Of a stretch of 51,579 nucleotides of DNA, positions 30,792 through 50,296 are shown piece by piece (position 1 is the stretch's first letter; each line of letters opens with the position of its first letter). The position numbers were made by a program, and so were the translations under genes. The notes under the pieces are model-generated. The model made no database searches. It saw only the letters and a list, made by a program, of their open reading frames with translations, and was not told where the DNA came from. This stretch comes from a bacterium (GTDB lineage: Bacteria; SZUA-79; Acidulodesulfobacterales; Acidulodesulfobacteraceae), in assembly GCA_021825865.1 (NCBI GenBank), contig JAKAFU010000011.1:1-51579 (forward strand), in the 5' to 3' direction.

Positions 30792-31517
30792 ATGGCTAAT
30801 ACATTTAAAATTTACGAAGACCTTCAGGATTCGTTCAGCGAACAGCAGGCGAGAGCCCTCACTAAGATTATATCTCAGGTTATAATCGACGAGTCGAACA
30901 TAGTAACTAAAGTTGAGTTTAACAGGCTTGAGCATATAGTCGGAGAACTTGCTGAAGCGCAAAAAAGAACCGAGGCGAGAGTCGGAGAACTTGCTGAAGC
31001 GCAAAAAAGAACCGAGGCGAAAGTCGGAGAACTTGCTGAAGCACAGAAGAAGACGGAAGAAACCGTAAGGAAGCTCGTTATAGATATGGCAGACGTTAAA
31101 AAACAGTTAGGCGGTCTTTCAATGGCTGTAGGTTATGGCATAGAAGACAAATATATGCCTTTTATGAAAAAGTTTGCCTTAAATCAGTATAATGCCGTTA
31201 TTAATAAAGTGGAAAGAAAAAACGTTAAGTATGCAAACGGGGCTTATGACGAGATTAACCTTCATCTTGAAGGAGAAAGAAACGGCAAAAAGATTTATAT
31301 CATAGGCGAATCTAAAGCTCAGCCAGGCAAAAAAGACGTCGATAAATTCGACCTTATGCTTAAAAGATTGGAAAAGCATTTTAACGCCGAAGTCAAGGGT
31401 TTTATGCTCGGATATATTTACGCTCCGGAAGTAGAAGACTATTTAATAGAGAAATATCCTCATATAGATTTCTTTAAGACCTATCAGATAGAAGAGATTG
31501 CCGGTACAAATAAATAA
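30792..31517 (+). CDS. Coiled-coil protein with predicted nuclease-like C-terminal domain (DUF3782-like)
   Basis: This is a 241-residue soluble protein. Residues about 45-105 form a coiled coil that includes three near-identical 14-residue repeats ([13 protein letters not shown]). The C-terminal half (about 115-241) contains [10 protein letters not shown] and, after a short strand, [17 protein letters not shown]. This arrangement resembles the PD-(D/E)xK nuclease fold seen in the DUF3782 group, which have a similar coiled coil in front. Whether it cuts DNA is unknown. No good ribosome site is near the ATG; AAAGG lies about 25 bases upstream. Palindromic iterons lie just upstream. It is oddly placed in a glycan locus and may be an insertion. 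Confidence 0.6.
30939..31064 (+). repeat. In-frame 42-bp tandem repeat, three copies
   Basis: Units beginning GTCGGAGAACTTGCTGAAGC start at 30939, 30981 and 31023. The first two are almost identical and the third has diverged. Each encodes 14 residues, exactly two heptads, so copies can be added without breaking the coiled coil. Confidence 0.9.
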
Positions 31518-45017: not shown

Positions 45018-45287
45018 TTACCCGAACAATTGGGAATGAGTTCCGATATCTATAAGTCTTATTTCGCCATCTAAAATCTGATATATCAATAGAAGGTCGT
45101 TTTTTATATGACATTCACGGCAATAGCTGAAATCGCCGGTTAATTTATGGTCTTTAAATTTGGGTTCTAAGGGTTTTTGATTTAATAGACTGCGGATAAT
45201 GGAAATAAAAATTTCGTCATCGGCTTGAACCACCCTTTTAGGATAGTGTTTTTTAAATCTGTTTGATTTGGAAAGCTTTAGTTTCAA
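45018..45287 (-). CDS. yafQ: YafQ-family toxin (ribosome-dependent mRNA interferase)
   Basis: This is an 89-residue RelE-superfamily toxin that is expected to cut mRNA in the ribosome A site and stop growth. The residues needed for catalysis in E. coli YafQ (H50, H63, D67, H87) align with H47 in FKDHKLTG, H60 and D64 in CHIKNDLLLIY, and H84 in GTHSQLFG, all with the same offset of three. The toxin therefore looks active. Its start overlaps the antitoxin stop by 4 bases, giving translational coupling and the usual antitoxin-first order. Confidence 0.85.
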   Translation of the reverse strand: MKLKLSKSNRFKKHYPKRVVQADDEIFISIIRSLLNQKPLEPKFKDHKLTGDFSYCRECHIKNDLLLIYQILDGEIRLIDIGTHSQLFG

Positions 45288-45565
45288 CCCCTAAGTTCCC
45301 TCATAAGCTCTTCTACGCTGTTATTATAAGTTACTTCCCCTTTTTCCGCTTCCTTAATAGCCTTCATCGTTTCTTTATTGGGTATTTCAAGCTCGAAAGG
45401 AAGTTTTTTATCCATAGTTACCTTGGCAAGAAACATATTAATGCCGTCGCTTAGAGTAAGATTATATTGTTTAAAGAAATTTTTTGCAAAATCCCTGTTT
45501 TTTTTATTTAGTTTTATGCTCGTGGCTATTCTTTTTTCATTTGATTTTACGGTTAACGTCTTCAT
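45284..45565 (-). CDS. dinJ: DinJ/RelB-family antitoxin
   Basis: This is a 93-residue antitoxin. The N-terminal half (IATSIKLNKKNRDFAKNFFK, then a turn and DGINMFLAKV) has the ribbon-helix-helix pattern used for DNA binding. The C-terminal half, with SVEELMRELRG, should wrap the toxin and block it. The gene precedes the YafQ gene with a 4-base overlap. A palindrome at 45616-45631, which contains the probable -10 element, is the likely operator for self-repression. Confidence 0.82.
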   Translation of the reverse strand: MKTLTVKSNEKRIATSIKLNKKNRDFAKNFFKQYNLTLSDGINMFLAKVTMDKKLPFELEIPNKETMKAIKEAEKGEVTYNNSVEELMRELRG

Positions 45566-46344: not shown

Positions 46345-47079
46345 ATGTCAGGTCATAGCAAGTGGAGTACTATTAAAAGAAAAAAAGGTGCGATAGATGC
46401 AAAAAGAGGGAAAATATTCACTAATATTATAAGGGAAATGATTACGGCAACACGAATAGGAGGAAAAGACCCTTCTTCAAACCCGCGTCTCAGACTTGCT
46501 ATTGACGAAGCTAAGGCAAATAATATGCCTAAGGAAAATATAGAAAGAGCCATAAAAAAAGGAGCAGGCGAGCTTGAAGGGGATTCGTACGAAGAGCTGA
46601 TTTATGAAGGCTACGGTCCTGCCGGCGTTGCCATTCTGATTGAAGTCCTGACCGACAATAAAAACAGGACGGTTTCCGAGTTAAGATATGCTCTTTCAAG
46701 ACACGGCGGGAGTCTCGGAGAATCCGGCTGCGTGGCATGGATGTTTAATAAAAAAGGAACGCTTGGATTTGACGCCGCAGAGTACACGGAAGACGAGATA
46801 ATGGAGACGGCGCTGGAACTGGGGGCTGAAGACGTTAAAACGGAAGAAGATGAAATAATTGTAACTACCGACCCTAAGGATTTTGAAGATATTAAAAAAG
46901 CGTTTGAAGATAAGAAAATGACGGTAAAGTTTGCAGAGGTTGTCTATATTCCGCAAACTTATATTGAACTTCAAGGAAAAGAATCGGAGCAGATGATTAA
47001 ACTTTTAGATGCGCTTGAAGAAATAGAAGGTATTCAGAATGTTAATGCAAATTTTGATATAATAGATGATAAAGAATAA
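46345..47079 (+). CDS. yebC: YebC/PmpR (TACO1) family protein
   Basis: This is a 244-residue cytoplasmic protein. The start MSGHSKWSTIKRKKGAIDAK, then RGKIFT, is the invariant head of the family. GGKDPSSNPRLRLAIDEAKANNMPKENIERAIKKG and YEGYGPAGVAILIEVLTDNKNRT follow in the standard order. Members act as transcription regulators or as translation factors that relieve ribosome stalling. Here it leads the ruvCAB block, a frequent arrangement. GGAGG lies nine bases before the ATG. The stop overlaps the ruvC start by 14 bases. Confidence 0.95.
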   Translation: MSGHSKWSTIKRKKGAIDAKRGKIFTNIIREMITATRIGGKDPSSNPRLRLAIDEAKANNMPKENIERAIKKGAGELEGDSYEELIYEGYGPAGVAILIEVLTDNKNRTVSELRYALSRHGGSLGESGCVAWMFNKKGTLGFDAAEYTEDEIMETALELGAEDVKTEEDEIIVTTDPKDFEDIKKAFEDKKMTVKFAEVVYIPQTYIELQGKESEQMIKLLDALEEIEGIQNVNANFDIIDDKE

Positions 47080-47680
47080 TAACGGCGGTTCTTGCAGCAT
47101 TAAGAGCAATAATAATGCCGGCGGTTCAATAAGAATTATAGGGATTGACCCGGGTTCGATATATACCGGATGGGGCATTTTAGATTCTGTTCAATTCGGC
47201 AGAAAAATAAAGTTAGTTTCCATAGGGCTTATTGACGCAAAAAAATATACATATCCGAATAATTTAGCTTTGATTTTTACTGAACTGAAACAGATAATTG
47301 AGGAGTACCGTCCTGCAATTATGGTTATAGAATCAGTTTTTTTAGGTTTAAACCCTTCTTCGCTGATTAAACTTTCCCAAGCCCGCGGTGCTATATGCCT
47401 GCTGTCCTCATTATACGGAATCAGTCTGAAAGAATATGCGCCGAGGTATATAAAAAAAAATGTTGCAGGCTACGGCGGAGCGGATAAAGAAGCCGTCCGC
47501 AGAATGGTCTATAATTTTATAAAAGAATTAAACGACGTTGATGTCTCTGCAAGTGATACCGAAAGCGATACAGAAAACAGAAAAAATTGCGGCAGAGACG
47601 CTAAACCCCTTAATAATAATGTTTCAGACGCCCTGAGCGCTGCCATATGCTGCGCTACCGATATGTCAAATTATGTTTAG
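47066..47680 (+). CDS. ruvC: Holliday junction endonuclease RuvC, with low-complexity extensions
   Basis: RuvC cuts Holliday junctions symmetrically in concert with RuvAB. The 204-residue protein keeps GIDPGSIYTGWGIL with D28, VIESVF with E89 and NNNVSDALSAAIC with D188. Three differences from the norm (about 170 residues) are seen. A 22-residue Asn/Gly-rich tail precedes the first strand. An insertion of about 25 polar residues (about 157-182) lies before the last motif. N185 sits where E. coli has the fourth acidic ligand D138. In Thermus that position is His, so the enzyme may still work. Its start overlaps yebC; a later start is hard to find. Confidence 0.88.
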   Translation: MIKNNNGGSCSIKSNNNAGGSIRIIGIDPGSIYTGWGILDSVQFGRKIKLVSIGLIDAKKYTYPNNLALIFTELKQIIEEYRPAIMVIESVFLGLNPSSLIKLSQARGAICLLSSLYGISLKEYAPRYIKKNVAGYGGADKEAVRRMVYNFIKELNDVDVSASDTESDTENRKNCGRDAKPLNNNVSDALSAAICCATDMSNYV

Positions 47681-47964
47681 CTATGAACTAAGAAGCTTCG
47701 CCAATGAGGACGGGGCAGTTTATCTCAACTCAATAACTCAATAACTAAATAACTAAATGATTAAATAATTCAATCGCTAAACAATTATTAAATAACTGAC
47801 TTATTAACTAAACAATTAAACAATTAATTAACTAATTAACTAAGCAATTAAATAATTAAATAATTAACTAAATAACTAAATAATTAATTAAACACTTAAA
47901 TAATTAAATAACTAACTAATTCAACAACTAAATAACTAAATCGATTATCAAGATTACCAATTAG
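47681..47964 (+). repeat. Degenerate AACTAAAT satellite between ruvC and ruvA
   Basis: From about 47725 to 47945 the sequence is built from 7- to 9-base units such as AACTAAAT, AATTAAAC and AACTCAAT, repeated about 25 times with changes. G is almost absent on the plus strand. No gene or obvious promoter is seen. It splits an otherwise compact ruv operon. Confidence 0.85.
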
Positions 47965-49035
47965 ATGATAGCTTTTTTGCGCGGCAATATAATTTATTCC
48001 GATATAGAAAAATCACTTGTTATTTTAGATGTGCAAGGGGTCGGATATGAAATTTTTCTTCCGGTTAATCAGATGTATTTTTCACAGTTTTTCGTTCAGC
48101 AGAATCATAACGGCAGCCTTAATAACAACAGCGATTACAGCAATAATTCAGGTTTTAATCAATATGCCTCCTTTTTTATATATACTTATGTTCGGGAAGA
48201 CAGAATAGTTCTTTACGGATTTCCTAATTTCACCCAGAGAGAACTTTTCAGCATATTATTAGATACAAAAGACATAGGTCCGAAACTTGCCGTAACAATT
48301 CTTTCAAACATAAACGCAGACGACTTCATTAATCTTGTATTAACTAAAAATATTGCAGGTTTGTCATCAATTAAAGGAATAGGAACTCTAACGGCGGAAA
48401 GAATAGTATCCGGACTGAAAAATAAAATAGTCAAAAGATTTAATTCGTTAAAAGACGTTGAAGCGGCAAGTATCGGGGAGTATAATTATAATACCGGCGG
48501 CGGCAAAAACTGCAATACATGCGTTAGTGCCGGCATTGCTAATGTTAATGACTACAAAAAAAACGGCAAAAATGACAATAATACTAGCGGCAATAACAGT
48601 CATAATAATAGTAATAATAATGACGGCGGCGATACAAACAATACAAAAAATAGCAATTTTTATGCTGCTGATGCTGCTAATTTTAATAATGGTGTCATTT
48701 CAGATAACGGCAGTAATACCAAAAGTATTGACAAGAACGGCGTTCACGATAATAATGACAATAAGAAGACAAATATTGGTATTAGCAGCAGCAACAGTAA
48801 AAATAACGGAAATAGCATAGGCAAAAATATTATTTATGAAACAGCTCTTGCGTTAAACGCCTTAGGATATTCTATGGCGGATTCTATTGAACTGGCAAGC
48901 CGTACCGGCATGAAGATGCAGGAAAAAAGCCAGATTTCCGGTACCGTAGCTGAAGAAGCATATATTTTCGAAATTAATACGGAAAATCTAATTAGAGAGT
49001 GCCTCAAGCATATATACAAAAATAAAATATCATAA
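47965..49035 (+). CDS. ruvA: Holliday junction DNA-binding protein RuvA with giant Asn-rich linker
   Basis: RuvA tetramers hold the Holliday junction and load RuvB. The 356-residue protein is far longer than the usual 190-210. Domain I starts MIAFLRGNIIYSD and is interrupted by an Asn-rich loop (about 45-67). Domain II has the two helix-hairpin-helix motifs, DTKDIGPKLAVTIL and SSIKGIGTLTAERIV. Residues about 172-288 are a low-complexity Asn/Ser/Gly linker. Domain III (about 289-356, ALALNALGYSMADS) binds RuvB. The linker sits exactly at the natural flexible joint between domains II and III, so function could be kept. The frame is unbroken throughout. Confidence 0.9.
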   Translation: MIAFLRGNIIYSDIEKSLVILDVQGVGYEIFLPVNQMYFSQFFVQQNHNGSLNNNSDYSNNSGFNQYASFFIYTYVREDRIVLYGFPNFTQRELFSILLDTKDIGPKLAVTILSNINADDFINLVLTKNIAGLSSIKGIGTLTAERIVSGLKNKIVKRFNSLKDVEAASIGEYNYNTGGGKNCNTCVSAGIANVNDYKKNGKNDNNTSGNNSHNNSNNNDGGDTNNTKNSNFYAADAANFNNGVISDNGSNTKSIDKNGVHDNNDNKKTNIGISSSNSKNNGNSIGKNIIYETALALNALGYSMADSIELASRTGMKMQEKSQISGTVAEEAYIFEINTENLIRECLKHIYKNKIS

Positions 49036-49198: not shown

Positions 49199-50296
49199 AT
49201 GAGTTCATATAAAAAAGATTTCGGCAGCAGCAACAGCAATGCTCTAAAAAAAGAAGCAAAAGCCGATGACAATTATAGCGATAATTATAATGAAGATGAC
49301 GGCAATGACATAGATCCGGCTCTTAACGATAATCCTGTAAGACCTTTAAGTTTCAAAGAATATATAGGTCAGACGAAACTGAAAGAAAATCTTCTCATTT
49401 TTATAAACGGCGCAAAAAAAAGAAAAGCTAAAACAGGAAAATACGATTTAGACCACCTTCTGTTTTTCGGTCCGCCCGGATTGGGAAAAACCACTCTGGC
49501 AACAATAATAGCAAAAGAGCTTGGGGTTAATATAAAAACAACCTCGGGACCTTCAATAGAAAAAACCGGTGATGTAGCCTCTATTCTATCTTCAATAGGC
49601 GAGGGAGATATTGTTTTTATTGACGAAATTCACAGACTTCCAAAACCTGTTGCAGAAATGCTTTATCCTGCAATGGAAGATTTCAGATTAGATATTGTCA
49701 TAGGCGAGGGACCGTCGGCAAAATCAATAAGGCTTTCACTGCCCCGTTTTACGCTAATCGGCGCCACGACGAGAGCAGGGCTTATTCCGTCGCCGCTGAG
49801 AGACCGTTTCGGTTTTACCGCAAGGCTTGAATATTACGACATTGATGAATTAACCGAAATTATAATCAGGTCGGCTTCGATATATAAAATTCCGGTTGAA
49901 AAAAAAGCTGCCGAAGAAATCGCACGCCGCAGCAGGGGTACGCCTCGGATAGCAAATAAAATGATAAGAAGATTAAGGGATTATATGCTGCATCTTAAGC
50001 AAAATTCTATAACACTGGCAGTAGCAAGGTACGGTATAGACAAGCTGGGCATCGACGAACTGGGTTTAGACGATAACGACAAATTTTTTCTGCATACTCT
50101 TATAAACAAATTTGCAGGCGGTCCAGTCGGCGTTGACACGCTGGCTCAGGCGATGAACGATGAGAAGGGAACCTTGGAAGAAGTAATAGAACCATATTTA
50201 GTCTCCTGCGGACTTATAGCAAGAACTAAAAAGGGCAGAATAGCCACCGAAAGCGCATATAAACATTTCAATATAATAAGAGAAGATTTATTATAG
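49199..50296 (+). CDS. ruvB: Holliday junction branch-migration ATPase RuvB
   Basis: RuvB is the hexameric AAA+ motor that drives branch migration on RuvA-bound junctions. The 365-residue protein has a polar Asn/Asp-rich N-terminal tail (1 to about 44). The core then begins at RPLSFKEYIGQTKLKENL. Walker A GPPGLGKT is at 91-98, Walker B has D142 and E143 (FIDEIHRLP), followed by sensor 1 IGATTRAG, the arginine finger SPLRDRFG and the C-terminal winged helix (GGPVGVDTLAQAM). All catalytic parts are intact. It starts directly after the duplicated ruvA tail. Confidence 0.95.
   Translation: MSSYKKDFGSSNSNALKKEAKADDNYSDNYNEDDGNDIDPALNDNPVRPLSFKEYIGQTKLKENLLIFINGAKKRKAKTGKYDLDHLLFFGPPGLGKTTLATIIAKELGVNIKTTSGPSIEKTGDVASILSSIGEGDIVFIDEIHRLPKPVAEMLYPAMEDFRLDIVIGEGPSAKSIRLSLPRFTLIGATTRAGLIPSPLRDRFGFTARLEYYDIDELTEIIIRSASIYKIPVEKKAAEEIARRSRGTPRIANKMIRRLRDYMLHLKQNSITLAVARYGIDKLGIDELGLDDNDKFFLHTLINKFAGGPVGVDTLAQAMNDEKGTLEEVIEPYLVSCGLIARTKKGRIATESAYKHFNIIREDLL

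Follow-up and report, generated by a model that had tools for sequence, protein, structure and literature searches.

An exceptionally long asparagine-rich hinge in RuvA of a Candidatus Acididesulfobacter bacterium

Introduction

RuvA joins a junction-binding core, domains I and II, to a RuvB-binding domain III through a flexible hinge. In the known RuvAB complex, domain III recruits RuvB through this flexible connection and stays on the RuvB presensor-1 hairpin throughout the motor cycle (PMC9477746). In canonical RuvA proteins, represented by structures from Escherichia coli (1cuk) and Mycobacterium tuberculosis (2h5x) and by RuvAB-junction complexes (7pbu, 7x7q), the hinge measures 13-27 aa and the domain I loop 11 aa. 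The protein described here has a hinge of 134 aa, a domain I loop of 32 aa, and an enlarged loop in domain III. Closer to it are the RuvAs of sister genera in the order Ca. Acidulodesulfobacterales, which are encoded in the same operon and have a hinge that is already longer than usual (52-96 aa), though shorter than the one described here and not Asn-rich.

Outside RuvA, the nearest parallel for the growth of such inserts is Plasmodium falciparum, an AT-rich genome in which AAT/AAC-coded inserts rich in Asn are found in every protein family, unrelated housekeeping proteins included, and are absent from relatives, some of them similarly AT-rich (PMC3749963). Deletion of the Asn-rich insert from one of these proteins, Rpn6, gave no detected effect (PMC3749963).

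The gene encoding this RuvA lies in a 51,579-nucleotide stretch of DNA (the window) from a genome that shares its genus with Ca. Acididesulfobacter diazotrophicus AP1, a genus of acid-mine-drainage bacteria. Our literature searches turned up no account of an enlarged hinge in RuvA, and the paper describing the order mentions neither mismatch repair nor repeats nor asparagine.

The ruvC-ruvA-ruvB locus

The ruvA open reading frame (47965..49035, plus strand) encodes 356 aa with an overgrown hinge and stands between ruvC and ruvB in the expected operon context. Its product passes the RuvA equivalog cut-off (125.7 bits with TIGR00084, cut-off 85) and scores 49.7 with PF01330 against a cut-off of 23.6. 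An AlphaFold model, computed from a 27-sequence alignment, is mostly confident at residues 1-44 and 64-173. These comprise domain I, an OB fold at residues 1-87 (47965..48225; PF01330 at 1-85), and domain II, a helix-hairpin-helix domain at residues 88-160 (48226..48444; PF14520), which together match E. coli RuvA (1d8l_A) with a Z of 18.6 and an rmsd of 1.7 Å over 139 residues. The acidic pin (R77 E78 D79, RED) is kept in the alignment, as are both helix-hairpin-helix motifs with their glycines G105, G138, and G140.

The model becomes confident again from about residue 285, where the C-terminal three-helix domain begins. Domain III (residues 289-356, 48829..49032) keeps the conserved LxALGY motif, and residues 286-351 superpose on two domain III structures solved with RuvB, 1ixs_A (1.9 Å over 50 residues) and 7pbl_G (1.5 Å over 48 residues). 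By this modeled structure, domain III retains the RuvB-binding fold.

Between these folded parts lies an Asn-rich, disordered linker at residues 172-288 (48478..48828). An earlier note on this DNA, made from its letters alone, had placed the enlarged joint at these residues, and the span is accurate because pLDDT falls below 50 at 174-284, between regions folded at 1-173 and 285-355. An additional Asn-rich loop that the note reported in domain I is likewise real; it occupies residues 36-67 (48070..48165), has 32 aa where E. coli has 11, and is partly modeled with low confidence (pLDDT below 50 at 45-53 and 56-63). The loop between helices 2 and 3 of domain III is also enlarged. Within the genus, four members, this species among them, have the larger domain I loop, and six of six have the larger domain III loop.

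Additions are also found on the neighboring Ruv proteins. The ruvC gene (47066..47680, plus strand; 204 aa; 105.3 bits with TIGR00228, cut-off 100.65) begins with a genus-specific N-terminal tail (47066..47131) that is Asn-rich, as had been noted, and also carries an internal insert that had been missed, at residues 156-185 (47531..47620), preceding the last conserved helix (SDALSAAI). The length of this insert is variable and is far greater in G004 than in the other genomes. The product of ruvB (49199..50296, plus strand; 365 aa; assigned by family model) has a variable, Asp/Asn/Ser-rich N-terminal tail of about 46 aa (49199..49336). The earlier description of an Asn-rich RuvB tail suits some congeners, in which the tail is long, better than this species, in which it is short and mildly Asn-rich; its length differs strongly among genus members. 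The catalytic regions of both RuvC and RuvB align without a break. The ruvC-ruvA spacer contains an AT-rich degenerate tandem array (47727..47941); it measures 284 bp in this species, ranges over 115-491 bp across the genus, and is often below 40 bp in sister genera.

Hinge length among relatives

Measured by common alignment boundaries, the hinge of this RuvA is 134 aa. In the five further members of the genus that have a RuvA, which are different species with independent assemblies, the hinge is in frame and 107-139 aa long. It is 52-96 aa long in the sister genera of the same family and 13-27 aa in 16 unrelated bacteria (E. coli and 15 others), so that the figure of under 20 residues given earlier for a normal joint is about right. 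Among some 310 RuvAs from diverse bacteria outside the family, in tables read by eye, the span matched by the ruvA model never exceeded 708 nt (236 aa). A RuvA with an exceptionally long hinge is a confirmed and well-conserved oddity.

The comparison with related genomes, which the earlier note had proposed as a check, also bears on the concern raised there that relatives might have a normal RuvA and the linker be a sequencing or assembly artefact. The source is a draft genome in 74 contigs. The same in-frame architecture nevertheless recurs in five independent congeneric assemblies, among them that of Ca. A. diazotrophicus AP1 and one in 5 contigs, and an artefact, whether of sequencing, assembly, or a frameshift, is rejected on this ground as scarcely credible.

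Composition, codons, and constraint

Asn accounts for 36 of the 117 linker residues, Gln for none, and charged residues for 18%. Given an Asn frequency of 7.4% in this genome, the binomial probability of 36 Asn in 117 is about 8e-14, and the best 50-residue window of the linker, with 20 Asn, ranks top among 272 sampled proteins. Linker Asn content is 24-36% in the genus and 5-15% in the RuvAs of sister genera. The linker has no long pure Asn runs such as AAT repeats would encode, its longest run being 3, and no tandem array was called within it. Adjacent identical codons exceed those of shuffled linkers in this species only (P 0.025). A recent pure trinucleotide expansion is rejected, since the linker has neither a tandem array nor a general excess of identical neighboring codons, and any expansion must therefore be old and degenerate.

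In the linkers, 72 of 81 serines are encoded by AGY, a share that drops to 36 of 116 elsewhere in RuvA, and RRY triplets account for about half of the linker codons or more. Because the codons of Asn (AAY), Ser (AGY), Asp (GAY), and Gly (GGY) lie one transition apart, this bias fits AAY-rich DNA that grew and was then mutated.

Selection differs between the two parts of the protein. The RuvA core has dN/dS of 0.11-0.18 among genus members and is therefore under purifying selection. In the linker, dN/dS is 0.21-0.38 where computable, with a weak synonymous excess, and more distant pairs within the genus share only 32-52% identity. When transitions were allowed for, the test found a synonymous excess, and so some purifying constraint, in the linker of the close pair G002/G006 (P 0.004-0.04); a second close pair showed little or none (P 0.04-0.28). 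The linker is probably constrained only weakly, in composition and frame rather than in sequence.

A probable genome-wide process

Asn-rich tracts are present in 8-25% of sampled proteins in the genus and in 0-2% in sister genera. They flank or separate conserved domains in many unrelated proteins (NuoE/F-like, NuoG-like, Mfd, ScpB, adenylosuccinate lyase, and MurT-type proteins); in the Mfd-, NuoE/F-, and NuoG-like proteins they lie specifically between such domains. The earlier note was right that low-complexity sequence has grown within a core repair complex, but the growth is genus-wide and proteome-wide, and specific neither to RuvA nor to the Ruv complex. Few sister-genus orthologues of the other tract-bearing proteins were found in the sampled DNA. 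The Mfd of G010 has an unaligned stretch at the place of the genus tract, and not every tract position is therefore new to the genus. As in P. falciparum, inserts coded by AAY occupy unrelated housekeeping proteins of an AT-rich genome and are missing from relatives, some with similarly AT-rich genomes. The differences are that the tracts here are degenerate mixtures of N, S, D, G, and K, with linker Asn runs of at most 3, where P. falciparum has long pure Asn runs, and that the host is a bacterium from a lineage without a MutS or MutL match.

One of the tract-bearing reading frames, L143:125-1828 on the minus strand, has a PurS domain after its adenylosuccinate lyase domains and may be a PurB-PurS fusion; an Asn-rich tract at its residues 466-549 overlaps the end of the PurS match.

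Tandem arrays are also denser in the genus (0.33-0.93 per kb) than in sister genera (0.02-0.25 per kb). RuvA linker length follows array density with a rho of 0.90 across 15 genomes and of 0.78 across the nine sister-genus genomes alone, kinship being ignored in both cases and some genomes being represented by only 20-60 kb. Within the sister genera, linker length shows no relation to GC content (rho -0.18, P 0.64), and GC content alone is rejected as the cause by the comparison of G018 (34.6% GC, 2.1% Asn-rich proteins) with G003 (34.2% GC, 13.2%). Taken together, the Asn-rich windows, the trend of linker length with array density, and the AGY/RRY codons indicate a genome-wide process.

Without mismatch repair, errors in repeat length would persist. 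Model searches found no MutS1 match in 25 family genomes and no MutS_V match in 28, several of these genomes being 97-100% complete, and MutL gave no match above its cut-off in 25 family genomes, only sub-threshold fragments. In the same searches, nearly all outgroup genomes have both MutS and MutL. NucS was considered as a replacement and rejected, with no match in the genus. Loss of mismatch repair is not a sufficient cause, because the sister genera also lack these matches although their linkers are shorter and their tracts few, and a RuvA of normal length is present in the outgroup G041, which is likewise without MutS1 and MutL matches.

Origin and consequences of the long hinge

We consider it likely that the linker arose by tolerated, slippage-type growth of AAY-rich DNA within a pre-existing hinge, in a RuvA that is otherwise ordinary and probably functional. 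A-rich, AAY-like DNA would grow by slippage across the whole genome, and growth would be tolerated wherever the protein is already flexible; in RuvA this would have lengthened the hinge between the junction-binding core and domain III about fivefold. The missing detectable MutS and MutL would act as a permissive cause, letting repeat-length errors persist; in Ca. Acididesulfobacter, AT content and repeat density have risen further. Slippage is here the presumed process, its direct signature being weak. Because the RuvA core and domain III are intact, domain III would most likely capture RuvB as usual, on a longer and floppier tether, and RuvA function is probably retained.

The earlier note had suggested that the linker may alter how RuvA holds RuvB. 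With an adaptive tether, domain III could reach RuvB at a greater distance from the junction or recruit more of it, or the Ruv proteins could be concentrated through low-complexity contacts. Long linkers with the frame always kept in every family member examined (52-139 aa), the weak purifying constraint in one close pair, and the disordered additions on RuvC and RuvB as well all speak for such a role, while the rapid drift of linker sequence and length in the more distant congener pairs and the similar tracts in unrelated proteins (Nuo-like subunits, Mfd, a Mur ligase) speak against it. So does composition, for a segment free of Gln and 18% charged is not typical of strong prion-like segments. 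We regard an adaptive tether as unlikely. Slightly less likely still is the stronger form of this idea, in which selection on the hinge has changed RuvAB mechanics, by long-range RuvB capture or local Ruv concentration, to give a functionally distinct tethered complex in a lineage without MutS and MutL. That the long tether has a function is conceivable, but the data do not support it. That RuvA is instead decaying, its inserts reflecting relaxed selection on a repair complex no longer important, could account for enlargement at four separate places (domain I loop, hinge, domain III loop, and RuvC insert); it is disfavored already by the low dN/dS of the core, and the unbroken catalytic regions of RuvC and RuvB and the preserved RED pin and helix-hairpin-helix glycines make it very improbable.

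The locus offers an experiment of nature on the length to which the RuvA hinge can grow with domain III still serving RuvB. It also draws attention to a bacterial genus in which Asn-rich inserts are accumulating throughout the proteome, in the manner of P. falciparum, and whose family yielded no MutS or MutL. Genome comparison can test directly how linker growth is linked to tandem-repeat density and to missing mismatch repair.

Other features of the window

Two further features of the window were seen in passing. A 42-bp tandem repeat at 30938-31042 encodes 14-residue repeats within a 241-aa reading frame. At 45018-45565 on the minus strand, two adjoining small reading frames have, by eye, the look of a RelE/YafQ-type toxin and a RelB/DinJ-type antitoxin.
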